NCBI GenBank assembly: GCA_013180625.2 | Contig: SNVD02004742.1 | Span: 1 to 64,000 of the forward strand | Direction of reading: 5' to 3' | Source: Boswellia sacra | Lineage: Eukaryota; Streptophyta; Magnoliopsida; Sapindales; Burseraceae | Length of the DNA stretch: 64,000 bases | Part shown: positions 1 to 58,745 of the stretch, in pieces | Layout: every line of letters starts with the position of its first letter | Position numbering within the stretch: position 1 is the first letter of the stretch | The notes under the pieces: generated by a model | What the model saw: only the letters and a program-made list of their open reading frames with translations | What the model was told of the DNA's origin: nothing | The model's database searches: none | Position numbers and translations under genes: made by a program

Positions 1-2
1 TG

Positions 3-418
3 TCTCCGTATAGGTTAGTATATGGTAAGCCATGTCACCTTCCAGTAGAGCTCGAACACAAAGCATGGTGGGCAGTAAAGCTTTGTAACATGGAGATGGA
101 TGCTGATGGAGAACAAAGGAAGCTTCAACTGCAAGAATTGGAAGAACTTAGAAATGATGCCTATGAGAATTCCAGAATTTACAAGGAGAGAACTAAGGCA
201 TTCATGATAAAATGATCTCAAGGAAGAATTTTGAAGTGGGACAGAAAGTTCTTTTATTTCATTCTCGCCTCAAGTTATTTCCAGGTATATTACGATCTCG
301 ATGGGTTGGACCTTTTGTTATTACTAATGTTTTTCCCAATGGTGCAGTGGAAAATGATAAGAGTACTTAAAAAACGGATAAAGTATCAAGGTGAATGGGC
401 ACAGTTGAAGCCTTACTG
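3..418 (+). pseudogene. pol remnant: integrase C-terminal region, frameshifted
   Basis: In frame from base 3 the translation begins [20 protein letters not shown], followed by an AWWA motif, typical of the end of the gypsy integrase core. A missing base near 204 shifts the frame; the next frame gives the integrase C-terminal sequence with a [12 protein letters not shown] stretch, then meets a stop near 370. A further shifted piece ends in LKPY just before 418. At least two lesions within 420 bases mean this copy cannot make a full integrase. In the family this domain binds LTR DNA and joins it to the target. Confidence 0.85.
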
Positions 419-941
419 ATGAGAATTCATGATGCAGGACATCGATGAGTACCTCTCTACGAGCCCACTTATTTGATGGGGGGTGTGAGGACAGATAACG
501 TCAGGCTGAGGACGTTAAACCAAGCGCTTATTGGGAGGCAACCCAATGTTTTTGAAATATAAATAAAAAGAGACAAAGAAAAGAAGGTAGTATTGATCAA
601 TTTTTTGTGTTTCGAGGAGATTCCTCTCATGGGCTATTATAATTGATCAGGTTTTATCTCTCTTTGCCATTTGTCTCATTTGCTTTGTTGTTTGTTTTTT
701 ACTTTCATTTGCTCTTGTGTTTTTATTTCCTTTATGTGTCTCTAATTTCTTTTCTTTTCTTTTCTTTTCTTTTTTTGTGTTTAATTTGATTATTCCATGC
801 TTCGAGTTCAGTTGTGTAACAGCTTGAGGAAACATTCAAACGGGAGTTGAAGCCATTGTTCGAAGGTTTGAAACGTGCATATCTGGGAGAAGAACAAACT
901 CAATCGCATTATCGGTAATATCTCTCCTTTTCTTCTCTTCA
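419..941 (+). other. Spacer between pol and accessory ORF 1
   Basis: No ORF. Bases 531-544 read TTGGGAGGCAACCC, a sequence recurrent just after pol in Athila-like elements. Bases 738-777 are a long pyrimidine tract of TTTTC repeats, followed by CAG at 809-811. Confidence 0.6.
738..811 (+). promoter_or_regulatory. Candidate 3' splice acceptor upstream of accessory ORFs
   Basis: A run of TTTTC repeats is followed by a T-rich stretch and TTCAG ending at 811, 130 bases before the ATG of the first accessory ORF. This has the look of a strong acceptor. Env-like genes in the same position of other LTR elements can be made from a spliced subgenomic RNA. The donor would lie outside the window, so use is inferred only. 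Confidence 0.35.
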
Positions 942-1496
942 ATGGATGCTGATATCTTTCTATCGAACCTTCGTAAATATTTCCCTTCACTTCCTCAAAA
1001 TGCTGTGTTTAAAATTTATAAAGTACGGATGACTAGACTTTGGGCGTTGATGCTCCTAAATGTGCCTGCGGATATCCGATGGCTTATCGAAGCCAAGGTG
1101 AGATTGTCCGGTGAGCCGGACATTAATCTCGCAAAATACATGCCTGGTCTAGGAAAGAGCTACTACGCCAAGAGGCGAAGAGCGAAAAGGTTACAAGTAT
1201 GTTATAAATGTGCTAGATGGAATTGTAACCAGACTTGTCGTTCATTAGGTTTTGCGTCCAGGAATAGAGAAGATAAACTTTCATTTATTAAGAATGGTTT
1301 GAGTAATGAGTCGCTGGATAATGTTTTGTTAACTCTCGAGTCACATTCTTGTGGACTTGTTCAGCGTGAATTGCTTAATCTATGGACACAATTTCGTGAT
1401 GAATTGCAGTGTTATAGTCTAGGGAATCTGACTAAAAACGACCCTGTTTGCCAGTTTATAAGAAAACTGGATGGGAAGCAAATCCCCGACTCATAG
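942..1496 (+). CDS. Retrotransposon accessory ORF 1: basic cysteine-rich protein, carlavirus NABP-like
   Basis: Intact ORF of 184 codons, ATG 942 to TAG 1494-1496. Residues 70-84 form a basic patch (LGKSYYAKRRRAKRL), followed at once by Cys87-x2-Cys90-x4-Cys95-x3-Cys99, which could hold zinc. Further cysteines are at 137, 157 and 170. A basic arm directly before a four-cysteine cluster, with a GKS-Y-A-RRRA type motif, resembles the small cysteine-rich nucleic-acid-binding proteins of carlaviruses, which bind nucleic acid and in some viruses act as silencing suppressors or alter host growth. That relation is from pattern recognition, not a search. No signal peptide or membrane span is seen, so a nuclear or cytoplasmic site is likely. 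A decayed homologue lies at 47740-48319 in element B, also next to a LOG gene. It could instead be an unrelated zinc-ribbon protein. Confidence 0.6.
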   Translation: MDADIFLSNLRKYFPSLPQNAVFKIYKVRMTRLWALMLLNVPADIRWLIEAKVRLSGEPDINLAKYMPGLGKSYYAKRRRAKRLQVCYKCARWNCNQTCRSLGFASRNREDKLSFIKNGLSNESLDNVLLTLESHSCGLVQRELLNLWTQFRDELQCYSLGNLTKNDPVCQFIRKLDGKQIPDS

Positions 1497-2038
1497 AAGG
1501 CGTTTCAGCCGTTACTGGACGTAAAACCAGAGGAAGATGTGAGCCACAATCACAACTACTTGTATATTTGAATGTGTGTTGTTGTTGTAGAATTTTTTTT
1601 CTTGTTTCTTTTGATCTGATTATCAATGTTGTTTTTGTGTTGTTGTTGTTTGTTGATTTTGTTTGTTTTAATTTCAAGTTTTCTTTTTGACAAACCATAT
1701 GACTACCCTATGGCATAAGTACACGTGGGAGACAAGTGTGGGGGTTTTGTCAACCCCCGCCGAAAGTGTATCTCCATTTTCCATGCTTCACGTGGGAGAC
1801 AAGTGTGTAGGTTTTGTCAAACCTCGCCGAAAGCATATCTCATTTTTTCAAATCTTGGGGCGATAAATCTGCATCGAGCAACCCCCACCGAAAGTATGTC
1901 CCCATGTGTCAAAATTTGAGAGTTTTATGGGTGTATATATACATTCTGCATATTTTCATATGTCATTCCATAACCTGTCTTGCAATTGAAAAGCATAATA
2001 TCTAACGTGTCTTACACAAGATTAGAGCACTTGTAGAA
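1497..2038 (+). other. Spacer between ORF 1 and LOG
   Basis: A T/G-rich stretch (about 1560-1690), rich in TTG and TTT, contains possible acceptor AGs. It is followed by a short tandem repeat and then AT-rich sequence leading to the LOG start codon. No coding signal is seen. Confidence 0.5.
1722..1905 (+). repeat. 67-bp tandem repeat, two full units and a partial
   Basis: CACGTGGGAGACAAGTGTG begins at 1722 and again at 1789, each followed by a TTTTGTCAA...CGCCGAAAG block. A third, partial unit with CCACCGAAAGTATGTCCCC lies near 1885. CACGTG is a G-box core. Related sequence is visible in element B near 47440-47540. Confidence 0.7.
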
Positions 2039-2689
2039 ATGGAGAAAACACCAATTCGGCGATTCCGCAATATATGCGTATTTTGCGGATCGCAATTTGG
2101 TAAAGATGGAGAGTTTACCACAGCAGCTCTTGATCTTGGTAGGACATTAGCTGCGAGGGGTATTAATTTGATTTATGGAGGGGGTAGTCTTGGGTTAATG
2201 GGGTGTGTGTCAACAGCTGCATCCCTAGGAGGGAGCAAAGTTCTCGGCATTATCCCTAAACCATTAGCTGTACGAGATATCGTAGGCAACACAATCGGGG
2301 AAGAGTTACAGGTCTCTAGTATGCATGAGCGTATTGCACATATGGTTGTTAAGTCCGATGCATTTATAGCTTTGCCGGGTGGTTATGGTACATTAGAGGA
2401 GATATTTCAAATCACCTCTTGGGCACAGCTAAACATCCATCGGAAACCCATTGGTTTGTTAAATGTTAATAATTTTTTTGATGGTTTGTTGTCCTTTCTT
2501 GATCAAGCTGTAGAAAAAAATTTCATCTCACCGTCAGCAAGGCAAATGCTGGTTACAGCTTCAACTGCAGGAGAGTTAATTGACAAACTACAAGAATTCG
2601 TCTATTCACCTGATCCAACAATGGCTCGGATAAATTGGTTTGGAGAAGGCAACAAAAGGCGTCAACTGGATTTAACCCTCCATCTGTAA
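2039..2689 (+). CDS. LOG-like: LOG-type cytokinin riboside 5'-monophosphate phosphoribohydrolase, carried by retrotransposon A
   Basis: Intact ORF of 216 codons, close to the usual size of plant LOG proteins. It starts MEKTPIRRFRNICVFCGS, then YGGGSLGLMG at 46-55, MHERIAHM around 95-102 and the catalytic signature PGGYGTLEE at 113-121, followed by TSWAQLNIHRKPIGLLNV. LOG enzymes release active cytokinin base from the ribotide, so they set local cytokinin level; plant members act in cytosol and nucleus. The ORF has no introns, whereas plant LOG genes normally have several, which fits capture through an RNA copy. It sits 542 bases after ORF 1 on the same strand, inside the retrotransposon and before its polypurine tract, so it is element-borne and not a neighbouring host gene. 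A diverged partner is at 46690-47255 in element B. Activity is inferred from intact motifs. Confidence 0.92.
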   Translation: MEKTPIRRFRNICVFCGSQFGKDGEFTTAALDLGRTLAARGINLIYGGGSLGLMGCVSTAASLGGSKVLGIIPKPLAVRDIVGNTIGEELQVSSMHERIAHMVVKSDAFIALPGGYGTLEEIFQITSWAQLNIHRKPIGLLNVNNFFDGLLSFLDQAVEKNFISPSARQMLVTASTAGELIDKLQEFVYSPDPTMARINWFGEGNKRRQLDLTLHL

Positions 2690-4650
2690 TCTCTATTTGC
2701 TGGTTTGCTTCGTTTTTGTTTGCTTTCTTTTTAGTGTGTTTATTTGAGATTTTTCATGTCGTTTCTTTTGAGCTTTTTCAGGTTATTTCTTTCGTCCCAG
2801 GTAATATTTTCTAATCTCGGTTTTTAGAGTGGTGGCTTAAAAAGTTCAAGTTCTCTTGAAACGCATTCTGGATCTCTTCAATCCATAATGGCTGAATAAG
2901 GAGGCTAACTTCTAAACTTTTTAGACCCATTCTAACTAACTTGTTTTTGTTTGCTGACTTGTTGAACTTTGTTATTTTATGAGTGAGTTTAGTTTTGCGT
3001 AATTTAGAGTTGTTATGTGTTTTTATCTTTATCAGTTTTGATTTAAAAAAAAACAATTGTGGAAAAGCCTGAGAATGGCAGAATATGGGGTTTCTTTAAC
3101 CCTTGAAACGCATTCTCTCTAAATAAATCTGTAGTTTGTTTATTTCATGTTATTTGAAGTGTCTTGTTTCTTGTTTTGTTCTTTCATAATAAAGGTATAT
3201 AGGCTGGAAACCTTAAGTCTGCGGGCTACTGGTCCTAAGGATTGTTGAAATATACAATCTTGACTCAGGTGTAACAACGCCACGTACCTCTTTTCTTGCA
3301 TTTTGTGGGTCGATGATAAGATAATGATTGAATTAAGAATAACTCTTGGAAAATGATAAATGATGCATGGATCTGTGTGCTTGAAATGTTTATTGGTTTT
3401 CGCTTTGCCTTCGATTCCTTGTACAACATTGAGCACTGAGCTATTATCACTGAGTTATTTGTTTACTTAGAGAAGGTTTATGTAATTTAAATGTTTCTTC
3501 AGATTTCAATGAATTCTAGAACTTGTTTGATGGTCACTCGAGGCGAAATCCTAGACTGTGCAACATTGGGGAAATGATTTAGGCCATCTTTGGACCGTTT
3601 GAGCCTTAATAGCCAACCTTGACTGAAATTGATCCCTAGTTACCCCTTTGAGCCTCTGTAAGCCTTTTTCTTTGTTAACTCACTAAAAGATTTCCTAACC
3701 TCAAATGAATTTGTTCCAAACAGTTTATCCCTTACCTATGAGCATGTAGATCATTCACAATTAAATTCTGAGCTATGTTCTGGTTTTGGGAAGTTAGAGG
3801 AGGTTGGGATGTGTCATGAGCAATACAAGTGAGTTCTATTGTGTTTAAATAAAAAAAAAAGAAGAAAAAAAAACAATCTGTACTTATCGTCCACGTACTT
3901 ACACATTGAGGACAATGTGTTGTTTAAGTGTGGGGGAGGGGAAGTGTAATAAAAAAAAAAGAAAAAAAAAAGAGAACAAAAGAAGAAGAATAAGAGATCT
4001 ATACCCTTGGTGTTCTTAAAAAGAATGAAACAACAAAGTGTGGGGGTGTAGTTTCCTTTGTTTTCTGCGAAAAAAAAAGATTGAGTGTTCTAAATAAGTT
4101 TGGGGGAGTAACCTGGTGAATTAAAATAAAGTTTGTTATAGGGTTGAGCTCTACATAGTCTTGAATGATTATGTGTTTGTGGGTGATTTGAGCCAAATTA
4201 TTATCCTTTATCATACCTTCACCCAAGCCAAACGTTACAAGCTTAATAAAGTCCTACTTGATCCTTGGTGTTGTGCATGTCTACATTAGTGGAGAGTGAC
4301 TTGAAAAGCAGGCCTATGGAGTTCATTTATACACACATCTTCAATATTAAATATGATTCATTTTTATGCATAAACTCATCCGGGTTACAAGTGATTAGGT
4401 GAGAATGGCTCTACACACACACACTTGAGGAATTGAAGTGAAGCGAAACTAATCTTTGATATGAAATTCTTGATCAAGTGCATTATTTTGAAGTTTTCCT
4501 TGGGTTATAATTAAGTACAATCTTTGAGGCCTATTTGCAAGATGAAGCATTTGTGTGTTTTAATTTTTTTGTTGATTCTGTTTCGGTTTAGTTTTATTTC
4601 ATATTGTCGTAGTTGCTCGAGGACTAGCAAAGTCTAAGTGTGGGGGAATT
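2690..4650 (+). other. Long non-coding region between LOG and the 3' LTR of A
   Basis: About 1.96 kb without a convincing ORF. Several blocks recur in element B on the other strand, for example the sequence around 3200-3290 with CTGCGGGCTACTGGTCCTAA (B: near 46250-46280) and around 2835-2860 (B: near 46460-46480). GTGTGGGGG-type purine runs occur at about 3930, 4040, 4100 and 4638; only the last abuts the LTR. Confidence 0.6.
4636..4650 (+). other. Polypurine tract of element A
   Basis: AAGTGTGGGGGAATT immediately precedes the LTR start TGATAAGTG. This is the expected site for plus-strand DNA priming. Confidence 0.75.
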
Positions 4651-6076
4651 TGATAAGTGTCTATTTATATATCATTTTCATATCAATTCGTCCATGTTTC
4701 TTTGCTATATTCCTGGTATTTTTATGTTTTTGTGTGGTTTTTGATGTTTGTAGGAGTTTTGGAGGAACTTACACAAAATTGGAGTAAAACCCTTCATTTT
4801 CACCTCTGCTAGTCAACCAATTTCTTGGAGTTGATTGTATCGATATACAATTAACCGGATAACATGCTATATACCATTGAAAAGCTCTCGAAGTCTATTT
4901 TCTGGAGAAATTTACGGTTCACGAATTTATGTAGTGTACCGAAAGTTGTGATAAAAATGGTATGAGAAGTGTATATTTGTAATTCCATATATCACTGTAG
5001 CATGTTATTAAATACGGGGCACTGTAGCAAGTTACTGTAGCAGAGTATTTAAACACATTTTAGGGTTTTATTTTCATAACTTGAAGAGGGGAAAACGTGG
5101 GAGGAGGCTGCATTTCTGGATTTCTCTCATCCCTTGGAGTTCTTGAAGGAGAAAGAAGATTTTGAAAGAGGAGGAACTACAATTCCAAGAAGATTCATCT
5201 ACAAAGAAGATTTTCAAAGAATTTGCTAAGTTCTTTCTTTCCTTTTCAATTCTGGAATTTCTCTGTATTGTATTTGTTATTCTGATTGAATATGTGTAAC
5301 TAAATCTGAATTGGTTGAGGGTGATTTTCAAAGCCCTTGATATGGATTTTGTGAGTTGATTGTGTAAGAAATTGTTATCCAATTCTCTAATTGAAGTTGC
5401 TTGTATTTTCCCATATCTAATGCTTATGATTGCTTACTGATTGTATTTGGAATGGCCAACTGAATATAATCTGTTGTTGTCTATTGCTAGATTAGAAATC
5501 TTGATCCGTAATTGTCATGAATTTCCAATCATTAGTAGCAAAATTGTGATCAGAGATTGCAATTGGAAAATACAACCTAGGTTAAATAATCCGAACTTGT
5601 GTGATTATTGCTTAGATCAACCTATCTTTCTCATCGTAATGCTTCCATTGAATTAAACTCAGAGAGCTTGTTCTAGGTTGTTTAATGGATAGAGATTAAA
5701 TAAAGAGCTTGTTTTATTTAACAACAAAGTAAGGAAAGATTGGGATAACAGAGCTTGTTGTTATCTACGGTTGATAACTTCAATGCTGTAATTGGATTAC
5801 AATTCTATGTTAATTCACAAATTCATATCTTGTGGCAGAGAAAGAACCCTTAACCAAGTGTCTCTCATTGATCTTTCATTCAAATTAACTTCTGTTTTGT
5901 TATTCTTACTTTGCATTCTTATTTCATTTAGTTAATCATTCAACAAAACCCCCCCTGTTTAGTTTATTGTTGCTGGAAATAACAAATTCAATTAGAATCA
6001 ATCCTCGTGGGAACGATATCTACTTATCACTTTATTACTTGTGCGACTAGTATACTTGCTAGTTTCGAACGCATCA
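4651..6076 (+). mobile_element. 3' LTR of element A
   Basis: It starts TGATAAGTGTCTATT right after the polypurine tract and ends CGAACGCATCA, giving TG...CA ends and 1426 bp. A TATTTAAA box near 5045 could be the promoter. The same LTR family appears on the minus strand at 57619-58745 plus 48340-48509. The right boundary is set by the switch to CACTA TNP2 sequence. Confidence 0.85.
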
Positions 6077-6121
6077 GCTACCATTATACTGACTTTCGAT
6101 TCTAACTATGTGTTCGTATAG

Positions 6122-6823
6122 GTTCACTCTTTACAAGAGACCTCAGATGTATCACTATCCAAGGAAATCATCAATTTAGCTAATGGGCCTAAATCGGGCG
6201 CACATCGCTATAAATCTTATGTGGTTAACGGCTTCAAATTTCGAACCAAAGACACAGATAAGCACAAGATAACTCAGCAATGTGGTGTTATTTTGAAGGC
6301 TGATACCATGAGCTATGCTAGTGCACGATATAAAAATCCCCTTTCAGGCAGTGTTACATTTCTTGGAGTGTTAACAGATATAATTCAAATTCGTTATGTC
6401 AATGACATGACTTTTATGTTGTTCAAGTGTGATTGGGTTGATAATCGGATTGGAAAGAAGTGTGATGAATTTGACTTCACGATGGTTAATTTTAATAATC
6501 TATTATATAAAGATAATCATGTGGATGATGAACCTTTCATTTTAGCAGAACAAGCTGAGCAAGTTTGTTATATTCAAGATCCAATGGATGAAGATTGGCA
6601 TGTTGTGCTTAAAATGACAATGAGAGATACATATGATTTCAATTCCAAAAGTTCATCTACCGCAAACATGGTGCCACAAGTTAAGCTATATACACAACAA
6701 GAATTTGATGAAAGGGGTTATTTTCGTGAGGAAGATGTTCAATGGGTTCGGCAAGGAGTTGAAGGCACAACAATTATCATCAATACAGAAGACAACGATG
6801 ATGAGATGGACGATATTGATTGA
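6122..6823 (+). pseudogene. CACTA transposase TNP2, C-terminal exon (DUF4216 region), 5'-truncated
   Basis: An open stretch of 233 codons plus a stop begins after an acceptor (CGTATAG) at 6121 and ends TGA 6821-6823. It includes ANGPKSGAHRYKSYVVNGF, FRTKDTDKHKITQQCGV and a VYFLGVLTDI-like block, and ends in an acidic tail (NTEDNDDEMDDID), as in the DUF4216 part of plant TNP2 transposases. The catalytic part upstream has been separated by the LTR at 4651-6076. The exon itself has no lesion, so retrotransposon A landed in a gene that was still fairly fresh. Confidence 0.88.
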
Positions 6824-24216: not shown

Positions 24217-24700
24217 GTTAGAGGGACCATTTACCACCATGTTCAGTAAATTCGTTTATTCCTGGAAGTTCTTGATGTTGGGAATAACATAATTATAAAT
24301 GATACCTTTCCCTATTGGTTAGAAACTCTTCCACGTCTACAAATTCTTACTTCGAGATCTAATAGATTTCATGGTCCTATTGGTGATTCTTGAATTATAA
24401 TTTGCTGTTGCCAGGTTGCAAATAGTAGACATATCTCGCAATGGGTTCACAAGTCTTTTGCCAGTAAGGTCTTTTGAAAATTTTAAGGCTATATATGCAA
24501 TATGCGGCTCATCAGTATTCTGCGTCATTGACGATAAAAGGAAATGCTATTGAATTGGAGAGGCTTATAACCATGCTCAAGATCATGGATTTCTCAAACG
24601 ACAAATTGTTAATATCTCTTAAAACAATGGCAGAAGATGAAAAAAAAAGAAAAGACTCAGCCAGAAAATGATAAATGTTAGTCGCAAATTCATACATAAA
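24217..24700 (+). pseudogene. RLP pseudogene 1, continuation after the insertion
   Basis: Resumes at TTAGAGGGACCATTTACC and continues LRR sequence with many stops. A remnant ending near 24670 corresponds to the island region before the last LRRs. Nearly the same sequence stands uninterrupted from 41934. Confidence 0.8.
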
Positions 24701-43664: not shown

Positions 43665-44998
43665 TGTTGTGAAAAATCCGCAAGTATACGGAATTGTTAC
43701 AAGTAATATAGATGTGAGTCCAGACATCATCCCACGAGGGCTGCCGACACTAAGTATCGAAATTGTATTAACATCATTTTTTTTAAATAATGATAAAAGA
43801 GAATTGGGTTTTGGTAAAATTAAATAAAAGTTGATTAAACTAAAATTAACACTATGGACACTAACAAAAATTAGGGAGAAAGGAATTTAATAATTAAAAA
43901 TCAAGGGATCCGATTTCACCAGAATTATTCAATTCAATTTCTCTAACTTAATTAACCAATGTTTTTTCCTACTGTTACCAATCGATTTCACTAATTTGAT
44001 TATTATTCTTTCTCAAGCAATAATATTGTATATTAATAGATTAAAATCACATCTCTGTCTCATCTAACTCACTATTAATGCCCATTAAGCACAAAAAATC
44101 ATATAAGATTGCAAAAATCACATTCATATCTCTCTCACATGATTTATGGCAAAATAATTAAAGTCTAATGTGAACATTACTTCTCAGTCTCAATCCACAT
44201 CTCAATTCATGCAATAATTGACCAAAAAATCACAAGCATTAAGCATATACTTAAATTGCTCAACAGTATTGGAATAAACATCAATCAACTAAAATCAAGA
44301 GAAATTGGACATCAAAATATGACTACATCTTCACCCTAGAAAAGGAAAATTAATTCATATTACAAAGAAATACAAATCTAAACATGTTTTTAAACATAAG
44401 TAAAGAGAGGGATAGAAAAACTAGCTATTTGAAATTGAATCTTGATGATGAAGATGGCTTCTATCTCGTTTGCCTTTCCTCTCTAAGAATTTCCTCCAAT
44501 TTTGAATGTCCCTGGTTGAATGAATTCTACTCCTTTTGTTTTTCTTCCTCAGCCGACAAGAGAGCAACATACTCACTGCAAAGCCATTGGATTCCGCAAG
44601 AAAGTATTATTTTCCTCTTTCAATTACGCATGTGGACCAGCTTTAATTGATTCTCCAAGTCAATGAAACCTTTGCTAGGTTGTCTTGCAAAGAAATGAAT
44701 AAAAAATGATTTCTTTTTATATCTTCTGATTGCTCCACCGAAAGTGCAAATGCTCCAAATTAATAGTCAATCATTCACTTTCCTTTCCAGCTCATTTTCA
44801 CCGACAAGCCATCCGAAATTACCTTTCGTATAAGCCACAACATTGTAGAACTTTGTCTTTATATAATTGGGTTCAAATCTTGAAATTTCTTTAGGTAGAA
44901 TTCTTTCAAATTTAGATAAAATTCATCAATTAAACATAAAAGGGGGACAGAAAACTCAGATAACATGTGTAAATAATGTGTGAAAATTAGACTTATCA
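43665..44998 (-). mobile_element. 3' LTR of element B
   Basis: On the minus strand it starts TGATAAGTCTAATTTTCAC after a purine-rich stretch (TTTCGGGGTATT) and ends GCGGATTTTTCACAACA, 1334 bp. CCTCGTGGGA near the end is shared with LTR A. The 5' LTR fragment at 58746-59543 is its close match. Confidence 0.85.
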
Positions 44999-46689
44999 AA
45001 TACCCCGAAACTTGAGTTTTGCTAGTCCTCGAGAAAAAGAGAGGAAAGAAACAATAAAGCATAAAGCACACAAAAACGAAGACATCTTTTGAATGGCAAA
45101 TAGGCCCCAAAGATTGCACTAAAATATAACACAAGGACTTATCATAAAATAGTTTCACTTTGCCTCAATTCCTCAAGTGTTTGTGGGTAAAGCCATTCTC
45201 ACTTTATCATTTGTAGCTCGGACGAGTTTATGCTTAAAAACTGAATCACCATAAATAAACTCTATAGGCCTACTTTCAAGTCACTTTCCGCTAATGTAGA
45301 CAAGTACAATAATAAGGATCAAATAGGACTTATTCAGTTTGTAACATTTGGCTAGGGTGAAGGTACGACAAAGGACAATATTTAGTTCAGAACACCCAAA
45401 ACACCACAAATCAATCGAGACTGTGTAGAGCTAAACCCCAAAACACGATTCATTATAGTACATCCAGTAATTTCTTCAAACTTATTTATAAACACTTATT
45501 CTCTGTATAAACACGAAATACAAGAAACTACACCCCAAACTTATTGTTTTTTTTTTTTTGGAACAAAGGGTATAACTATCAACGCACATTCTTTTTTTCT
45601 TTTTTATTTGATTTGATTTTTTAATTTGATTTTATATTTTTTTTAATTGAGAACTCACTGACATTTCTCATTACACTTTCCAACCTTCATCAATCTTCTT
45701 GAAGCTATCGCATGACTGAAAATACAATCTTGAATGATCTATATACTAATGGGTAAGGGATAATCTATTTGAAAAATTTATTTATAGGCTGGGAAATATT
45801 TTAGTGAGTTAAATCAAAGAAAAATGCTTAAATAGGCACAAAAGAGGTAACTAGGGATCAATTCATATATAGGTTGGCTAAAAAAGCTCAAACGAATAAA
45901 AAATGGTCTAAATCATTTCCCTAACATTGTGCAGTCTAGGATTTCCCCTCAAGTGACAATCAAACAGATCCTAGAGTTCACTAAAATCTTATGAAACACT
46001 TAAATGGGATAAACCTTCTCTAAGTAGATAACTAACTCAGGGATTATGGTATTTTCACAATGTGTTCAAGGAGTATAAGCAAAGCAAAACCAATAATAGT
46101 TAAAGTGAATGGATATGTGTATAATGTATCATTTTCTAATAGTTATTCTCAACTCAATCATTTTCTTATCATAGGCCCACGAAACTCAAAAGAACAAAAG
46201 TATGTAGCGTTGTTAGACTTAAGTCACGATTGTCTATTTCAATAATCCTTAGGACCAGTAGCCCGCAGACTTAGGGTTTCTAGCGTATATACTTTTGTCA
46301 CAAAAGAAAGCAACACTCAAACAAAGAAACAAAAGAGAACACTAGTTACAAAATAAAGTTAGTTATATCATAAGTTAGCTAGAATGGGTTTTAAAAGGTC
46401 AAAACTATATCCCTTAACTCCGCTACTCCGAAGTAATTAATAGACCCGAAATGCGCTCCATGAAAGTTTGAACTTTTTACCCTGCCACTGTAATAGGTTA
46501 GCCTACTAAATTGCTAGTAAAAAGGAACACCAAGAAAAGAACTTTCACAAACACAATAAAAAGTAGAAATAAATATAAAGGGATTAAACTTATTGATTAC
46601 AGACGGAGTGTCAAATCCAGTTCACGCTTCTGATCACTTCCCTCAAACCAGTTTATTTGAGTTGCTACTAGATCGAGTTCAAAAGGGAA
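44999..46689 (-). other. Non-coding 3' region of element B
   Basis: Colinear with 2690-4650 of element A in scattered blocks, such as TTAGGACCAGTAGCCCGCAG at 46250-46269. No ORF of note. Confidence 0.55.
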
Positions 46690-47255
46690 TGCTTGCGATT
46701 TATTAATCAGATCTCGATAGTTGAAGCAATGATCAGGACTTTCGGCTTGGACAAAGATAAAAATTCCTGTTCCATAGCTTGATCGAAAAAAGAAAACAAA
46801 CCATCAAAGAAATTGTTGACATTTGACAAACCAATGGGTTTCTGGTGTAAGTTTAGTTGGGCCCAAAAGGCAACTTGAAAAAGTTCTTCTAAAGTACCAA
46901 AATCACCTGGCAAAACTATAAATGCATCGGAGTGAAAAACCAGTCTAGTAATGCGTTCATGGATAGATGATACTTGTATTTCTTTTCCAACTATTTTTCC
47001 ACAAATATTTCCTACATCTAAAGGTCTAGGGATAATGCCAAAAACCTCAATTCCTCTTGAATTCGCAGCTAGAGAAACACACCCCCACTAATCCAAGGCT
47101 ACCTTTTCCATACACTAAATGAATGTTTCTCTTAGGTAAAACTTTACCTAGATTGTTTGCTACTTCTAGAAACTCTCTGTTTTTAATAGGATAGGATATA
47201 TAAAATACACAAATACTTCAGAATTGACAACCTAGTTCACTCTTCATTTCCACAT
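46690..47255 (-). pseudogene. LOG-like: LOG-like gene of element B, decayed
   Basis: Minus-strand pieces include NIHLVYGKGSLGLVG, a VFGIIPRPLDV-type block in another frame, and from 46913 down PGDFGTLEELFQVAFWAQLN with KPIGLSNVNNFFDGLFSF. The catalytic signature reads PGDFGTLEE where element A has PGGYGTLEE. Two or more frameshifts and a lost N-terminal frame make it inactive. Its divergence from A shows that LOG was carried by the lineage before the two families split. Confidence 0.82.
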
Positions 47256-47739: not shown

Positions 47740-48319
47740 CGTCCAATGATAGCTTAAACGCCTTCTATGAGTTGAGGATTTGCTTCCAATCCAGTTTTCT
47801 TGTAAACTGGCAAATAAAGGTCATTTAAAGTCATATTCCCTAGACTATATTGTCATGTTCCTTTCAAAACTGTGTCCACAACTTTATCAGTTCCCTCTAC
47901 ACTAGTCCACGGGAATGACTCTCAAGAGTTAGTACGATATTATCCAATGACTCTTTACTGAATCCATCCTTGATGAACTATAGTTTATCTTCCCTATTCT
48001 TAGACACAAATCCTAGAGAACTATAATGCTTGCTATAATTCCATCTAGCACGCCTATGACAGACTTTTAACCTTTTAGCATGTCGCTTTTTGGCGAGAGT
48101 GCTCTTTCCTAGACCAGGCACGTAAGTTGTAAAATCAACTGTATACTCAATGGCTAACCTAATCCTAGCTTCGATTAACCAGCAAATGTCTATAGGCATT
48201 TTCTTAATCATCCACATTCTAAGTCTATTAAATCGTGCTTTATAGATTTTTACCAGAGCGTTTTCAAGGAGTGAAGGAAAACGTTTATGAAGGGATGGTA
48301 GAATGTTATTAATATCCAT
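47740..48319 (-). pseudogene. Accessory ORF 1 of element B, decayed
   Basis: ATG at 48319 opens 113 codons similar to the protein at 942-1496 (KIYKARFNRL, WLIEARIRL, VPGLGKSTLAKKRHAKRLKV, SLGFVSKNREDKL). The frame is then broken, and similar DNA continues to about 47740. The basic patch is kept, but three of the four clustered cysteines are replaced. The LOG remnant follows in the same direction, as in element A. Confidence 0.82.
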
Positions 48320-48537
48320 AACAAAGAGAGGAGGAAATATATTACTAGAACTATGTTATGAATGCAAATGAATAATAACACAACACAAAGTTAAATGGAG
48401 TGAGAAATAATCAATGAGAGAAACTTGGTTGAGGGATTCTCTGCCACAAGATATGAATTTGCGAATTAACCATAGAATTGTCATCCAATTACACATTGAA
48501 ATTATCAACCACTATAAGAAAAATGGGAATAGATGAC

Positions 48538-50278
48538 GGGAACAAACAGTCATAAACAAGGGTGGATGATAGAAAATCTATCAGTCGTCTATGTCACTGT
48601 TACTCATTTATGATAAAAAAAAAAGTCTGTCATCAACTTTATGATAATTTTTACATGTCGTATGTCTATCACACTAGAAAATCAAATTTTTAATTAATTT
48701 CCTTAAAATTTTTTGGCAGGAAATTGACTTTTTTTGAATTTGAATATTTTGGCGGGGAAAATGATTTTTTTCTTCCTATTTGATTTTGACAAAAGAATTT
48801 TAGTGCAAAAATTTTTGGTTAATTTTTGTGGGTAAATTATGTCTTTTGTTACAGAATTGATGATTAGTATTTTCTGTCATAATATTTAAATTTAGTTATG
48901 TAGAACTATGATTTTTTTATTTTATTTATGCATTTTTGTTTCTAAAATTCATTTACAAATTCAATATGAATTAAAAATTAAATTGCACATCCAATTGAGT
49001 CCAAAAACTTTTTATAGTAATGACATCCATATAACAATATAGAGAAAAATTACATAGATCATATATATCATCACTGATATATAAGCTAAATCATTAGTAA
49101 CTATTTACAACAAACTGTGATTATAATTCGAATCCAAAAGCAACAACAAATGATAGCCAACCAATTTGGAGTTCACATGACAAATTTCGGCAACTAAGAG
49201 AAAATGTTTTATATTTGACTAGCTAAGCGAGCAAAACTCCTTCTGTTTTCTCAGCAAAATCTACAATAGAGCTCCTTCTATTGTCAGCAAAAACCCAACA
49301 AAACTTCTCCCATATTCTTAGAAAACTCCTCCCATTCTGAGCAAAATACGCAGCAAAACTCCTCCCATTCTTAGCAAAATACCCAACAAAACTCCCAAGT
49401 CCGGCAATAACTCAATCTATCAACACCAATGAATATACCAAACAATATTATTAAAAAAAAAAATTCTCTGTTAAAGCAAGTTCAAGTTCTACAACCACAA
49501 AAGGAAAATTGAACAAAAGAAATGAGAATTAAAGAGAGGAAAAATGAAAAAACACTGCAAATTTTGTGTGAATAAGGATAGAAGAAGATTTGTTACAATG
49601 ATTGGGTCATAATTTTCTAAATTTTGGATCTTGCCATGACTGCTCCGCCTTTGTTGCTCATGTTGCTCTGATAATATGAACATTATCAATTGCTGTCAAA
49701 ATTTTAAGTTACATTTAAGTTATAGAACATTGAAATGCAGAAGCAAAACCATCTCAACATGAAAGTCTAAAATATCCTTCTATAAATTTAGCATCTCTCG
49801 ACTACAGTGTAGGTTTGCTTCCCTCTCTTGTAGCTCCCACAATACCAACCAAAATCCAATTATTTTAGCCAGTACATTTTTTGGATAACTAAGCAACAAA
49901 ATGAAAATGACAGACTGATGAGGCAACAATTTTTGTCCACATGTGGCACTGAAAAAAACAATTATGGCCATGCATGTAAAATAGTCTGTATTCTTTAAAT
50001 TTCGTAGACCAATCCTTGTATTCACAATCAAGTTCTACATTTCCTTACTAAGATGTATTGTAAGCATTTCCAAAATCATTGCCTCTAAGAAGACCCATCT
50101 AGGGATCTCAATTTTACAATAAATACAGGTAAGTACCAAAACAAAATTAGTTAGATGCAAATCAAATTCAATCTATTTATCTAATCCCAATTATGTAATA
50201 ATTGGAAAATGTGATGTGGAATTTACTTAATCCATAGATTAAGTAAAAATTGATGTATAAGCAATAGATGCCTTACAG
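48538..50278. other. Left part of the CACTA element
   Basis: Subterminal repeats to about 48680, then AT-rich DNA. A block near 49240-49400 repeats CAAAACTCCTCCCATTCT about four times. No gene recognised. Confidence 0.4.
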
Positions 50279-52939
50279 TGCTAGCATAGATTCCAAACAG
50301 TCCAGTACTGTTGAATATACTATTGAATGTAGAGAAAGATTGAATCTACTGATACTTATTCAACACATTGAGATCTGCATTCAATATGCATGGAATAAAA
50401 ATGTTTAAAAACTTGACAAAAAAACTGTCTTTTGTACACACAAGAATCAATGCATCTTAAGTAGTAATACAAATGAACTTACACATACCAAAGTAACTGA
50501 TAACCACAACCAAGATAAAAATAAACTGCCTAGCAAAGAGGACAGTGCAGCATTTAAGCAGAACTTACATAGACATGAGTACATCCCTTTCCTAGGGCCT
50601 CTTGCTGAAAATAAGCCACCTCCCTCCCATAAGCACCTGCAGAACTATAAAAATTCATACTGAGCTAAAGAATACTCAAGTATTGGTAAGGAGATGAAGA
50701 AATAATACTAAAAGTGCATACAAATCAATAGCAATGAATCTAGAAGATCATCACAAAAGGAGAGAGGAAACAAATGATTGCCAATTTGTTAAATATCTTA
50801 AGAAACAAAGTAGAAGAGGCAGTACTTGCAGAACAGTCAAAGTGATAACTTCTATCATAACTTCTTTCTCTTGCAGCCAACCACCAGGCACTCCAAAAGC
50901 AAGAGCAATATGTGTACTCTGAAAATAAAAATAGAATTAAACAATCTATGTGGAATTGAGTGCTTAAAAGAAAACAAACTTTTTATTTATTTTTTCTCCT
51001 TCCTCTTGATGAGGCAAGGCAAACTCATTTAGTAATTGCAACTAGTAACTCACAACTCTGAATCAGCTTGCTAGCGGTAATCCCCTCCAATGTAAAGAGA
51101 TTTTGGCTCTGCAGGATAGGGTACTTTTGGTAGGTCTGAAATAAGCAGCTCTGCAACTTGTAAAAGCTCATCAAAATCAATCCCCGATGCTACCAGGACC
51201 ATTAGCAAATGACACATTCGAAAAAAGGATTGTCTCCCAAGTATAGGATTGTCAAAGTAATAAACCCAGTAAGACCGGGGTCGATCCACGAAGAAGGAGG
51301 TTTTAGCGCTATAAATTATAAGTAAGCAAATATGATGTAGATGATTCAAAGGGATGGCAAGATAATATCAACAATATGACTAAAGAACAAGTTCTTGGAC
51401 AATAAATGAGAATAACACAAGAGAAATTAACACAATGATAATGAGAGCTAAGATTAGAGGATCCGCCCTTGATATTTTGAATAAGGATAAACAACCCATT
51501 TTAGTTATATGAGTTATATTGCTTCGTTACCAATATTTATACCACTTCTCGTAAATGGGTTCAAGCATCCCATGTGCCAATCTCCATATGTCTACAACAA
51601 ATCAAGGTTCCTAACTAGATTCGTGTCGGTAAGAAAGAAGCATACAACATCTAGAAAGGATCCAAGCATTTGATGTGCCAAGGATTGTCTACAATGGATC
51701 AAGACCTCCACTTTACGAGTGGTGTCAAGATTGATTAAGAAAATAAATATAAATCATACAAACAACATAAGATTATGAATATGAAGCACATATTAAGGGT
51801 TAGAGAATCCTTACTCTCATATCAAGGGTTTCACCCTTTCACTTTAGCAAGAGAGAAATTAGCAAGACATTGTAAGAGAAAGAACACAAAATGCAAGAAA
51901 AAGGAAATTCATTAATAACATTAAAACAAAAGAGAAACACAATACAAGATCCCAACAAAGGCCAAGATGCCTTAATGGGTCACAAGGCACCTCTATTTAT
52001 AGATACATTCAGGGGCAAACTTGTCAAATTACAAAGGAATAATTGTCAAATATTAGATGCACCAACTTTGACAATTGGGATAATTAGGTGAACCGACTTT
52101 GACCACCGATTTTGACATTGAATTTTTGAGAATTTTAATCACATGTCTTCATGAAAGTCATAGATATTTCTATCAGCTTTCTAGAACATCTTGATTCATA
52201 CGATTTGGATACGTATTCTGAGAGATATGATCAAAATACTGAGGTATGGTCAGGCTGGGCTGAAACTGCAGATGGGTTCACTTCAAGCCCATTTTTGGTC
52301 CACTAAGAGCCCGAATTTGATGATGCTTCTGAAATACAATCTTGTAGATAATTTAAGCATCTTTCCAAAAAATTAAGATTTGCACCATTGTGATCTATAA
52401 ATAGAGAGTTATGCCCATTTTATCGAACCTGTAACAAAACCAAAATTAAGAGGAAGTTAATTCCAAAGATGCAAAGACCACAAATATGCTTAAGTTGAGG
52501 AATTTAATGACACTATTAATGCAATATGATGAACTAAGCTCTTATTAAACATACATATTTAAGTGTTCATCAGCAGAGCAGTGTAGTTCTCCTAAAATTC
52601 TCACATTGACCAATAAACACATCTAATGAGTGCAAAACAGAGTCCAAATTAAAACTAGTCAAAACAAACTATCGATATTATAATGTGGGCTTGAATGATC
52701 ATGCATGCAGACATTATATATGCATTTATGTCTACAATATAAGCTTTTTTCACAAGCTAATTGATCTTATAGCAACGAATTCCTCCAAAATGGTGCCATC
52801 CAGTCTGTTCAGTGCTGATGCAAGAGCTAAAAGAGGATTTGCTAATGCACCAAAATAACCAGCAGAATGAATTTTCTCCAAAAGTAGACCTTGAGGATTG
52901 TTATGGAGTTCCACAAGCTCCAATTTCAACTTGCACAAC
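50279..52939 (-). pseudogene. MPPA: Captured MPP-alpha exons (middle part), several lesions
   Basis: Minus-strand exons: 52939-52771 (LELVELHNNPQGLLLEKIHS, ALANPLLALASALNRLDGTI); 52591-52573 joined across a solo LTR to 51204-51054 (ENYTAL, VASGIDFDELLQVAELLISD, AEPKSLYIGGDYR then a stop); about 50919-50825 (THIALAFGVPGGWLQEKEV); about 50636-50569 (glycine-rich LMGG...GMYSCL, frameshifted); about 50366-50279 (VLNKYQ, stop, IQSFSTFNSIFN, GLFGIYAST). The glycine-rich loop binds presequences in the active enzyme. The donor after the first exon reads AT where GT is expected. Clearly dead. Confidence 0.9.
51210..52572 (-). mobile_element. Solo LTR of 1363 bp inside a captured MPP-alpha exon
   Basis: On the minus strand it starts TGATGAACACTTAAATATG and ends CGAATGTGTCA. 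The flanks TCTGC/TTTGC (minus strand) are a 5-bp duplication with one change. TATAAATAG near 51993 is a likely promoter box. It splits the ENYTAL-MVLVASG exon. Confidence 0.82.
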
Positions 52940-55900
52940 TGTATAAACATGAGGGAAAGTATAATAAGATCAGGGAACTTGACATGAAATCAGCACAAAA
53001 AAAGAAAAGAGTATCATGCCAATCATTGCCAATGATTACAAACAGTGAGTTTAGTATTTCTGAAATGTGAGAGCAATGGTAAAGTAAACCATTTAAGTTA
53101 TATGCATAAATGTGTTTTATTTTAGATAAAAAGTGAAGTATAAATGAATAACTTAAACTTAATCATATAGACAAAATGACATATAAAACTACATTTCAAT
53201 ATATAAATGAATAAATAAGCAGATGAGTAACAGAGTGTGCTTACAGTCATTAGTTTTTTAGGTAACTGTGCAGTTTATAATCTGTGAAGAAATTTATAAC
53301 TTTAAAAAATTTTATTCCCATATATCTGATAAAATATTGAAAAACCTATACTACATAACAAATAACAAAGAATCAAATAATAAAAAAATGAGCTAAAGTT
53401 CGGATGCCAACAGGGTGATTCTCCTAACCCACCTTCACGCTCCAGTATGCAAATAATTGCGTGTAAAGCAATCACCACATTTGGATACATTCATGCCACT
53501 TACTCCACTATTTAGTATTCTTCAAATCCTTTGTTAAAAACCAATCACAAACACAACTCCCTCGCACAAAATAATATTATACTAAAACATGATCACATAA
53601 TTCTTTAAGAAAAAAAAAACTAACAAAATATTAGATTAGAAACTAAACTTGTATTTTAGTTTAGTAGTTGTTTATGCAAGATCACCAAACAGAAGTCTAT
53701 TTTTACAATGAGTCGGATGATATGTTGGTGTGCCTGTAATGATAGCAAAGGCAGTTGAGTAAATAAATTATAATTTATTTATATAGTGTGCTTTGGTATC
53801 ATTAACTTTTACTAAATGTAGTACGAAAGTTGAACAATTTCCAACGTGGAAAAAATGATTATGTCAATAGAAAATAGGTACAATAAGGCTGCAAGCCTAA
53901 CTTACAACAACAAAATAAAGGAGGGGTCAAGCTCTTTTGCCACGTTGCTTTTAGCCACTTCTTGTAGGAAATGTTTTTGCCTTTTGTGTCAAACCCTAGC
54001 TGCACCCTCCTTAGCACAAAATGTTAGGATTGCTTATTATTATACACATATAACTTATAAAATAATATAAATTAAATGTAAACTGTAGCCTTCATGTATA
54101 TAACTACACGATAAAGGCAACTCTAAATAAATTAGGCTTTATGAATGTCTACTTTTTAATTATGTTGTTTATTTAAAAAAGTTGATAATTATGGCTTTAA
54201 TGGTTAAGTTTCTTTTACTGAATTTATATTATTTTAAGTTGTTCTAATGTCAGTCACAATCAATTAGTCAATTAACATGTTTATTGGGTTTGGATTTTCA
54301 GCTAGTTTGCTTGCGTTCTACAGCTTGTAACAAAGTTTGATTTTTAATTGTATAAGCAATTGTTAATTATATATATCCAGCCAACAACATAACAAATCTC
54401 TAAAAAATATATATTATTCTTCATCTCAAATCAATGTCTTTTTCAAATAAAATAAAGGAAATCTTGATTGCGATGGCTAGGATAATTAACATATTATTTT
54501 ATTATAATATTATAAAAGACAACATGTTGAAGAATGGAATAATTTTATAAAAGACAACATGCCATGTATAAAAGACAAATTTTCCATCAAACCAGGTTCT
54601 TTTATATCGATATTACTAAAGTTAATTAAGTTAGAATTTGATAATAGACAACCAAAAAAGTTTTAACTAAGTTATTGTTGAGTGATCTATTAGAAGATTT
54701 AACAACTTGCTTAAGTCACATTAAAAAAAAAATTGTTTAGAACTCAAATTCTCTCTCTCAACCTGTTTTTCTTCTTTTTAAATTTTGCTCAATAGTTTTA
54801 TTTGTTTGAGTGGTAGCTATCAATTCATGCGAATAGCAGCATCACAAAAAATTCATTTGCTTAAAACGACGGGTTGCTCATTAACTCCATCTAATCTACT
54901 TGTCATTCACTAGAATTATAACTAAACTACATGTCTCTCCTTTGTTTTATAGACAAACGGCATATAACTTGTTAAACGCCATCATTGATGTTGACATGGC
55001 AACATCACAAAGAAAGCCTGACTTTGACTACATGAACTTTGACTACCTAGTCCTCAACAAAATATAAAACAATTTAACTTCTTCTCCGATAGCTAGCCTT
55101 GTTCACTTCTCTCTCTTACATCAACAACAATCAAACCTGAACAGGAACCTTGACAAGGAACACTCTTTACGATTTTTGAAGAAGTGGGTGACTATGTATA
55201 GAATTGCAGCTTCAAGACTTATCTCTCTCAAGGTCAGTACCATCTCAATCCTTAAATAAAAAGCATTTAACTTTCTATTTGTTTCCCCAGAAAATGCGGG
55301 GGTTGGGAGTAAAAATGTAGATCTATGACTTTTATGAACTGGGTTTGAAGGAAATGTTTGTCTAGGTTGACCAAAACGATGAAAAATAAACAAAGTTTGA
55401 ACATTTAATTTTTTCTTCATTTTTCTTGGATCTTCTCTGGAACAGACCGACTGGGTGGTATTGACAGTTACATATGTTGTTTTGAGATCAAAGAGAGAAA
55501 CGGCAATATAACCCACTAATTAAAGATGTTTACAACAAACCAAGCCATTAATTAAACACAGTCGTCAATCCAACCTCCAAAAATTTAGCAAACACGTTTT
55601 GTACCAATAATTAGGGGAAAGAAGTGACAAAAAGTTAGACAAAGAGAAGATGAATTACTTACCATAAGAAAAGAGAAACGGAGAAGATGGCCTCTCACAC
55701 GTTGCCCAGTGATAATCACTCAAAAATGCGGACAGAAATCACACTAAGAACTCTAAAACGATGAAGAATTAGTCTTCATGGAGGTAGGTCTTCACGATCT
55801 GTTATGCATAACAAAATGAAAAGTTGTGTTTTTTATTAAACACTTAGGCCAAAACGACGTCGTTTCTGTATAATATTAAATAAAAAATGAAACCCACCAA

Positions 55901-57400
55901 AACGACATCATTTAAGATATTAAATTACTAATATTTAAACTAAATATTTATCTTACTATATTAACCATAAAATAATATTAATTAAATAATATTATAATCA
56001 CACTTCTTTAATTTTTTAATATGTTTTTAAATAAATAAATGAGATCATTATAGTTTTAAATAATTTTAAGATTTTAATAATTTCATCTATTCTAAGTTCT
56101 TAAAATATTTAATGTTCAAAAAATTTAATTTTAATGAGCTAAAAAATAAAATAAAAAATTAATTAAAAAAATACAAGAAGACATTTCGCAAGATGTAATT
56201 TTTTGCAATATGCCTTCCATGAGTGTTGCTAAAGACTAACTTCATCAGTTTTTCGCAACACGCAAGAAATGCACATTGCGAAAAACATCATTCAGCAACG
56301 TGCATTTTTGCGCGTTGCAAAAAATGTGTTGTCATATCTTATTTTTCTTATAGTTTTCTTGACTGTAACCTCGCAAAGTGTGGACGCCAAGAATCTGAAA
56401 TATTTTGCCAAGATTTTTAGGGCACTTTCGATTAGGGATTTGGCACTTGTAATACGAGAGAGAGAGCAGATAAAATCAGGGATTTGGCATTGGAAATTAG
56501 GAGCGAATTTCAAGTCTATGAGTGAAAGAGGGAAATGACAGATAAAAGAGGGAAAGTGAGAGAGGGAAAGTCAATATCGAAATAGGAGGAAGTCATTATT
56601 TTTTATACACAGAATTTTCATATTTGTCTCTTATTTTGAAATGACAAATTTGAATATTGATAACCCACAAATATTATTAAAATTATGATTTGACTTCTCA
56701 ATTAATAATATAGTTGACAGTATTATAAAAAATCCTCAAATATATTATTTAATGAGTCATGATTAAAATTATATTATTTAACAGTGACTTTGTCTTTTCA
56801 TATTCCTAATTTATAAGTTTTTTAAATAAATATTAAGTCATTTCTTTAAATTTTAAATATTATATTATTTCTTTATTTTTTATTTCGAGAATTACATTTC
56901 AATAAAATTAAAATTTATTTTTTATTTCATAAATAAATAATATTTTTTAAATTTTTATATATGTTTACATTTTATGAATTAAAAAAATTAAATAATAATT
57001 CTTTTCTAAAATGCTGCACAAAAAATAAACTTTTAGTAGCATTATAAATAAAAAAAATGCTACAATGTAGTGCTACTAAATATGTTATTTATTATAGTGA
57101 GAGTTAGAGATTTTGAAAGATTTTAGAGAGTTAAGTAGTATTTATCTTTTGCCATGAATGTATATGTGTGTGTTGAGACAAGTATTTTTTTAAAATTGTA
57201 AAAAAAAATTAATGAATAGAGCTAATTTTCATTGTAGTGATAATGCAAAAGGTAAAGGCAATAAGAATAAAGAAAAAATATATTGGGGTTGAAATGGATG
57301 GTGTAGGGGAAAGTTTTATTGGAGGAAAATGAAAAGTAATTCACTCTAGGTTTTTTTAAGGCATTTACTAATTTTTTAAATAAAATATTAATTTAAAATT
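52940..57400. other. Right interior of the CACTA element
   Basis: AT-rich. Bases 56200-56340 carry degenerate GCAACGTGCA-type words like those at 60600-60890, and TATAGTG or TGTAGTG ends near 57100 and 57236 hint at further decayed elements. Two ORFs of 70-130 codons have no recognisable homology. Confidence 0.35.
55194..55232 (+). pseudogene. Possible MPP-alpha first exon, opposite strand
   Basis: ATG followed by MYRIAASRLISLK and a GTCAGT donor resembles the start of plant MPP-alpha (a mitochondrial targeting sequence). It is on the plus strand while the other MPP-alpha exons here are on the minus strand. It is short, so chance is possible. Confidence 0.4.
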
Positions 57401-57618
57401 TAGTCAAACACGGTCAATAAGAAAATTCTATCATAAAGTTTTGATAGAGTTAATTTCTATCACTAGTCTATCATCGATTCTTGATAGATAAAAAATTTAT
57501 CACAAGTACATCATTAAGTGTCTGATAGATCATAATTCTATCACGACTCCAACATCCTTTTATGATATAATGATTTTTGTCAAAGTGTCAGTCATCTATT
57601 CTCATTTTTCTTGTAGTG
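57400..57618. repeat. CACTA subterminal repeats, TGATAGA family
   Basis: TCTATCA and TGATAGA words recur every 20-30 bases up to the right end, mirrored at 48540-48680. Confidence 0.7.
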
Positions 57619-58745
57619 AACCGTAGATAACAACAAGCTCTGTTAACCCAATGTTTCCTTACTTTGTAATTAAATAAAACAAGCTCCTTATTTGATCTCT
57701 ATCCATTAAACAACCTAGAACAAGCTCTCTAAATTTAATTCAATAGAAGCATTACGATAAGAAAGATAGGTTGATCTAAGCAATAAACACATAAGTTCGG
57801 ATTATTTAACTTAGGTTATATTTTCCAATTGCAATCTCCGATCACAATTTTGCTACTAACGATTAGAAATTCAAGATAATTATGGATCAAGATTTCTACT
57901 CCAGCAATAAACAACAATTGGATTCTATTTAGTTGGCCACCCAAATAAAATCAGCAAACAATCATAGGCATTGAATACGAAAAAATAAAAGCAACTTCAA
58001 TTAGAGAATCAGATAACAATTTCTTAAACAATCAACTCACAGAAACCATATCTAGGGCTTTGAAATCACCCTCAACCAAATTAGATTTAGTTACACATGT
58101 TCAAACATGTCATAAATACAATACAACATAGAGACATTCCAGAAAATGAAAATGAAAGGAAAGACTTAGCAAATCCCTTGAAAATCTCCTCCGTAGATGA
58201 ATCTCCTTAGGATTGTAGTTCCTTCTCTTTCCAAGCCCTTCTTTCCCCTTCAAGAACTCTAAGAGATGAGAGAAATCAAGAGAGACAGCCTCCAACTCAC
58301 TCTCCCCCTTCTTGTTGTTATCAAAACAAAATCCTAAAATATGTTTATATACTCTGCTACAGTAACCTGCTACAATGCCCCTAAATAATAACATGCTACA
58401 GTGATTTGTAAAATTACAATTTTGTACTTCTCACACCGTTTTGATCATAACTTTTTATACACTAAATGGATTCATGAACCATAAATTTCTCTAGAAAATA
58501 GACTTCTAGAGCTTTCCAATGGTATATAGCACATCATCTGGTTCTTTGTATATCAATACAATTAAATCTGAGAAGTTGATTGACTAGTAGAGGTGAAAAT
58601 GAACGGTTTTACTCCAATTTAGTGTGAGTTCCTCCAAAACTCATACAAATATCAAAAACACACAAAAACATAAAAATACCAAGGAATATAGCAAAGAAAC
58701 ATAGACGAATTGATATGAAAATAATATCTAAATTGACACCTATCA

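Follow-up and report, generated by a model that had tools for sequence, protein, structure and literature searches.

A betaflexivirus-type nucleic-acid-binding gene and a LOG gene with an EAR-like tail in a Ty3/gypsy-type retrotransposon of Boswellia sacra: a candidate host-manipulation cassette

Why would a plant retrotransposon carry, between the end of pol and its 3′ LTR, one gene of a viral family and another for a hormone enzyme? The question is raised by positions 942 to 2,689 of a 64,000-nucleotide stretch of Boswellia sacra contig SNVD02004742.1 (the window), where two ORFs follow one another in what is termed here element A. Extra ORFs of plant gypsy elements are mostly without an assignable function; the two found here have clear families and signs of constraint. 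An earlier note on this DNA had proposed a retrotransposon lineage with a LOG gene and a carlavirus-type gene. Such a lineage is borne out, as both genes are intact in element A and the pair, or its linkage to pol, is found in other plants. Our preferred reading, held tentatively (probability about 0.45), takes the locus for the accessory region on the 3′ side of a plant Ty3/gypsy-type retrotransposon, which may be a host-manipulation cassette made up of a betaflexivirus-type nucleic-acid-binding protein (NABP) gene and a LOG gene with an LxLxL tail.

The order in element A is integrase end, NABP ORF, LOG ORF, polypurine tract and 3′ LTR (Table 1); the upstream part of pol, the reverse transcriptase and the 5′ LTR are outside the window. 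With a gypsy-type integrase 5′ and an LTR 3′ of the gene pair, element A is classed as a Ty3/gypsy LTR retrotransposon. In the LTR comparison, positions 4648–5772 are 86% identical to 58748–57619. The integrase end shares 72% identity over 67 residues with the start of P0073, a Rhamnella gene model. It is frameshifted, since its two matches to the integrase of contig L001 lie in differing frames, and given this damage element A is probably non-autonomous, to judge from its sequence. Five AAGTKTGGGGG tracts are present in the interval from NABP to the LTR, at 1734, 3926, 4036, 4096 and 4636; the last is likely the polypurine tract of element A, and such tracts may act as additional primer sites.

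Table 1. Positions of the features of elements A and B in the window
Feature	Position	Strand	Basis
Integrase C-terminal end of element A, frameshifted	1..352	+	L001 integrase match at 3–260 and 203–352, in two different frames
Post-pol motif GGACGTTAAACCA with TTGGG/CCCAA hairpin	510..547	+	Motif with 3 matches in window vs 0.07 expected; hairpin predicted
ORF for Viral_NABP/Carla_C4 nucleic-acid-binding-type protein, intact, 184 aa	942..1496	+	Pfam; dN/dS
NABP basic patch (residues 77–82) and CxxCxxxxCxxxC (residues 87–99)	1170..1238	+	Conservation among homologues
Putative constrained element, last NABP codons and stop	1428..1563	+	pS drop; post-stop identity; two compensated pairs in three sequences
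ORF for full LOG protein, intact, 216 aa	2039..2689	+	PF03641; PGGYGTLEE and R98 present
LOG C-terminal basic patch and LDLTLHL, EAR-like (LxLxL) tail	2654..2686	+	Conservation vs shuffles
3′ LTR of element A (TGATAAG...ACGCATCA, TG...CA)	4651..6076	+	Read by eye; polypurine tract immediately 5′
3′ LTR of element B	44100..44995	-	86.6% identical to 59543–58746 from 44897 on
LOG relic of element B, end QKRELDLTLRL-stop	46600..47226	-	Three tblastn pieces, two frames
NABP relic of element B	47768..48319	-	55% aa identity to A; six stops; 3/4 cysteines replaced
A-type LTR on 5′ side of element B	48357..58745	-	58748–57619 matches A 4648–5772; 48510–48357 matches A 5769–5921

The first of the two ORFs belongs to a family known above all from plant RNA viruses. 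Pfam assigns it to Viral_NABP (PF05515, E 1.7e-10, 41.7 bits against a cut-off of 23) and to Carla_C4 (PF01623, E 3.1e-5, 24.3 bits against 20.9), and the basic four-cysteine protein of the earlier reading is confirmed, with cysteines C87, C90, C95 and C99. A search with the single sequence gave 151 homologues at E≤1e-3, and a 31-row profile gave 654. Alignments were built from 165 listed homologues of these 654 (A1, 30 plus the element A protein; A2, 124 plus the element A protein). Carla_C4 is found in all 31 aligned rows and Viral_NABP in 27 of the 31. The CxxCxxxxCxxxC pattern occurs in 124 of the 165 listed homologues and the basic run in 135. Populus, Xanthoceras, Rhamnella, Gossypium, Citrus and Acer are the named hosts among the matches listed.

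The NABP gene is under purifying selection. Between element A and L001 (182 codons), pS is 0.63 and pN 0.21, with a bootstrap range of 0.24–0.43 for pN/pS; the resulting dN/dS of 0.18 answers, for NABP, the check across copies that had been proposed. Of two structure models, the first was poor (pLDDT 58.4) and the second fair (pLDDT 74.4, pTM 0.44). Among the top 17 viral fold matches of the latter, 16 are of flexiviruses, none of them significant (best E 0.078). Of these 16, individually insignificant, 14 are named as nucleic-acid or RNA binding or as silencing suppressors; the match at rank 13 has no name. Query TM-scores of the viral matches were 0.16–0.24, and a search of the PDB with the model gave no significant match (best E 7.2). 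The protein shares the Viral_NABP and Carla_C4 families with the nucleic-acid-binding and cysteine-rich proteins of betaflexiviruses, such as carlavirus p12 and mandarivirus CRP, and in both a basic patch stands beside a cysteine cluster. Unlike these, it is encoded by a retrotransposon, and it has a conserved C-terminal stretch, LGNLT...RKLDGK, past the Viral_NABP match (residues 36–145).

The second ORF encodes a LOG. LOG families in plants produce cytokinin. The match to Lysine_decarbox (PF03641, the LOG domain; E 4e-39) covers positions 1–131 of 131. Both ORFs are intact where they had been placed by the earlier note, and the LOG is, as described there, full length with PGGYGTLEE. Its nearest solved relatives are Arabidopsis At2g37210 (2a33) and At5g11950 (1ydh), which we take to be LOG3 and LOG8; they are 52.7% and 47.3% identical to the element A protein and share with it the LOG domain and the active-site motif. 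Unlike them, the element LOG ends in a basic patch followed by an LxLxL tail. The two Arabidopsis proteins, the host LOGs compared, have no such tail and end in unrelated sequences.

This tail had been missed in the first reading, and it changes the likely mechanism. Also missed there was the RNA-level constraint at the NABP stop that is described below. Within the last 14 residues, L.L.L is found in 97 of the best 120 LOG homologues (of 7811 found). Four of the 120 fell outside 185–245 aa and were dropped (P0121, P0122, P0124 and P0147), and the remaining 116 together with the element A protein were reduced to 35 at <80% identity. Tail L.L.L is present in 29 of these 35 non-redundant LOGs, against a mean of 2.9 and a maximum of 10 in 2000 shuffles, so that a chance origin of LxLxL is rejected; elsewhere in the LOG sequence L.L.L occurs in 0/35. 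Column conservation averages 0.92 for leucines 210, 212, 214 and 216 and 0.74 for the four preceding basic columns, compared with 0.32 for the linker 201–205. The active site is kept as well: R98 in 33/35 and E120 with E121 in 35/35, residues with a catalytic role, and PGGxGTxEE in 33/35. In 27/35, PGGxGTxEE and L.L.L occur together. Even the LOG relic of element B retains the tail (Table 1).

Six of the 35 LOGs have no L.L.L. One of those scored in this way, P0170, ends in IDLNLTP and fits the other EAR class, a match noted once counting was complete. Phylogenetically, the 35 LOGs group in a single clade that excludes the two Arabidopsis LOGs (support 99), and within it P0156 and P0203 branch first. 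Since these two are among the six, the tail may have arisen after LOG was captured, or it may have been lost in the LOGs that do not have it. It could also come from a host LOG outside the two compared. From the linked cases and the copy number, for instance the many loci in Reevesia, we infer that most of the 35 relatives are borne by elements. EAR motifs are described as LxLxL or DLNx(x)P, with extended LxLxLxL forms mostly at the C-terminus, in the relevant part of PMC9956375. LDLTLHL in element A, with L.L.L in 29/35, fits the conserved LxLxL class.

The two genes are also linked in other plants. In Rhamnella, the gene model P0073 starts with an integrase end that is followed by NABP, and in P0074 the NABP, 60% identical to that of element A across 97% of the latter, is joined to a LOG; our Pfam scan of P0074 found LOG and not Carla_C4, and precomputed domains give both. 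The Gossypium gene model P0115 contains NABP (Carla_C4 E 2.9e-4) and then, by eye, a stretch resembling a LOG C-terminus. A faint hint of further linkage is that P0001, an NABP, and P0127, a LOG, share a longest-contig value of 8,723. Among bacterial and archaeal contigs, 136 pattern matches yielded one confirmed locus, L001 (DAIEQH010000041.1, 3,330 bp). This contig is filed in a Candidatus Nomurabacteria bin, and it is apparently a plant Ty3/gypsy fragment contaminating that bin. An intact integrase ORF of 466 aa (rve E 2.3e-16, Integrase_H2C2 E 1.2e-12) lies on it and is followed, after 192 bp, by an intact NABP identical to P0007. The earlier note would have been contradicted had the two genes been linked nowhere else to pol or LTR sequences; P0073, P0074, P0115 and L001 all show linkage to pol or of the genes to each other.

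The pair is, nevertheless, not obligatory. No LOG was found by tblastn in the 3,330 bp of L001 (best E 7.2), although L001 3016–3099 matches element A 3572–3654 and the equivalent place in element B, both of which lie beyond LOG. LOG was therefore gained or lost, and NABP is able to go without it. NABP seems to form the core, with LOG as an optional addition. In this respect the earlier note is only partly supported.

Element B carries the gene pair in the same order, as had been noted, in decayed form: its NABP has six stops, and its LOG lies in two frames with one stop and an altered PGG motif, so that both copies are dead. Its 3′ LTR gives no blastn hit in the element A LTR at E≤1e-5. The possibility that A and B are the only copies and derive from one segmental duplication is excluded by these differing LTRs. 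On the 5′ side of element B lies an LTR of the A type that is split by a 9.1-kb insert (57618–48510); a piece of this LTR adjoins the NABP upstream region without gag-pol between. Element B is a mosaic. The insert itself (48510–57618) has a GTT duplication and ends that look CACTA-like. A codon-position test between A and B gave 40, 33 and 61 for LOG (p 0.009) and 53, 33 and 58 for NABP (p 0.024). Three non-coding controls gave 61, 32 and 43 (p 0.007) and, for two others, p 0.21 and 0.27; since one control is as uneven as the genes, the test was not used.

Beyond its protein, the NABP gene shows signs of a constraint at the RNA level that, on comparison of the sequences, appears to span its stop codon. 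Between A and L001, pS drops from 0.699 in the preceding codons to 0.138 in the final 22 (Fisher p 1e-4, from rounded counts). In the 67 bases 3′ of the stop, 62/67 are identical, compared with 401/565 columns for the gene itself, gaps counted. In three small hairpins at the stop, 14/14 pairs are conserved across A, B and L001, two of them through compensated changes. This is equalled in 53/500 shuffles, and single folds give z-scores of -1.46 and -1.76; a structure over the stop is for these reasons only suggested, and the synonymous constraint carries more weight. A search of viral contigs for the stop-codon element, LOG and NABP gave no confirmed locus. The sequence GGACGTWAAACCA occurs after pol in element A (510–522), after NABP in element A (1517–1529) and after NABP in element B (47744–47732), 3 matches with 0.07 expected. 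The TTGGG/CCCAA hairpin predicted at 510–547 has a fold z-score of 0.00. In an Rfam search of window positions 1–6200, no match was obtained at E≤1.

How could such genes benefit the element? Under our preferred reading, the LOG would make active cytokinin, and its tail would reach the nucleus and dock on the host co-repressor TOPLESS, making the LOG bifunctional. NABP would act like carlavirus p12 and dampen silencing or turn on host genes. Host cells would then stay dividing and be less able to silence the element, which would gain in germline passage. We infer each of these steps, from enzyme activity and nuclear entry to the germline benefit. That the additional tail lets the enzyme grip TOPLESS is likely, as a prediction from its motif. 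Pathogen effectors are described as capturing TOPLESS through EAR motifs, and the effector HaRxL21 as binding it via a C-terminal EAR, in the part of PMC9956375 that deals with them. The element LOG and HaRxL21 (PMC9956375) are alike in being parasite proteins with a C-terminal LxLxL; they differ in that the tail here is on the hormone enzyme of a mobile element and TOPLESS binding is predicted only. For NABP, PMC7588395 presents carlavirus p12 as a nuclear activator and silencing suppressor, and PMC12172455 presents viral members of the family as a pathogenicity factor or suppressor, in the passages concerned. In support of a cassette, both ORFs are intact between the integrase end and the LTR, their relatives are linked in other plants, and the LOG active-site residues and the tail are both kept across diverged relatives. 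Against it stand the six LOGs of 35 without L.L.L, the absence of LOG from L001, the frameshifted integrase end of A, a codon test that does no better for A and B than for a non-coding control, and viral fold matches of NABP that are insignificant, with 0.078 as the best E.

Alternatively, the LOG may be a cytokinin-activating enzyme only, with a tail that serves nuclear entry or stability without any contact with TOPLESS. PGGxGTxEE in 33/35 agrees with this, as does the production of cytokinin by plant LOG families as stated in part of PMC9289625. We regard it as unlikely, because the alternate leucines are kept while the residues between them vary, which is the pattern of EAR and not of a plain basic signal. 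The opposite emphasis, that the LOG is mainly a scaffold whose several EAR tails titrate TOPLESS and that its catalysis is incidental, would account for the conservation of the tail, still present at the end of the dead copy B, and resembles the use of EAR motifs by pathogen effectors (PMC9956375, in part). It is quite improbable, as E120 and E121 in 35/35 and R98 in 33/35 would be unexpected if activity were useless.

NABP could also be a factor for the element's own RNA, a chaperone or nucleocapsid-like protein with no effect on the host, to which LOG is unrelated. The occurrence of NABP without LOG in L001 fits such a role, and the family name and the basic zinc-type motif suit RNA binding. 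Nevertheless, activation and silencing suppression are ascribed to its viral relatives (in parts of PMC7588395 and PMC12172455) and LOG would be left unexplained, and we allow this reading a small chance only. That both genes are passengers, acquired by the element and now drifting, is very improbable. Copy B is dead and the integrase end of A is frameshifted, as drift would have it, but the dN/dS of NABP between A and L001 and the long ORFs and motifs retained in diverged relatives argue against it.

Parts of this arrangement have been met before. Steinbauerova et al. in 2011 reportedly found two Athila-like elements resembling LOGL4. PMC9289625, citing Steinbauerova 2011, states that Citrus and Populus have Ty3/gypsy consensuses with a LOG (YgdH). 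Those elements and element A have in common a LOG-domain gene on a plant Ty3/gypsy element; element A adds the viral-type NABP and the EAR tail, and neither an NABP domain nor an EAR tail is mentioned in section 12 of PMC9289625. The main texts of PMC7264820 and PMC11963269, which concern extra ORFs, are without the terms cytokinin, carla, lysine and nucleic acid binding, and 'log' occurs in them 0 and 3 times. In the open-licence PMC literature searched, no report was found of an NABP gene of a retrotransposon, a LOG EAR tail or an RNA constraint at the NABP stop. The claim that the pair is undescribed in plant retrotransposons has therefore to be given up for LOG, which is in print in PMC9289625, and holds, within the literature searched, for the viral-type gene.

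A wider reading would see here a widespread lineage of plant retrotransposons with a host-control module, in which a flexivirus-type protein for silencing suppression and transcription and a TOPLESS-hijacking cytokinin enzyme are accompanied by a conserved RNA element that lies over the stop of the first gene and controls the accessory genes. We consider this doubtful in its full extent. If true, a transposable element would act on the hormone level and the TOPLESS hub of its host in the manner of pathogen effectors, and a gene family common to RNA viruses and retrotransposons would raise the question of the direction of capture.

Some minor observations concern the surroundings of the gene pair. 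The interval 3179–3837, 3′ of LOG, has no long ORF and no Rfam match; its identity between A and B is 79%, versus 74% for the NABP and LOG genes in the same comparison. Directly after the LTR of element A, an ORF at 6122–6823 matches DUF4216 (E 2.9e-23), presumably a CACTA-associated domain, and from this adjoining ORF element A may sit within a CACTA-type element. Farther downstream, 24368–25957 and 42083–43664 are paralogous stretches, 93–95% alike, around an ORF whose product, by eye, resembles a leucine-rich-repeat receptor-like protein.
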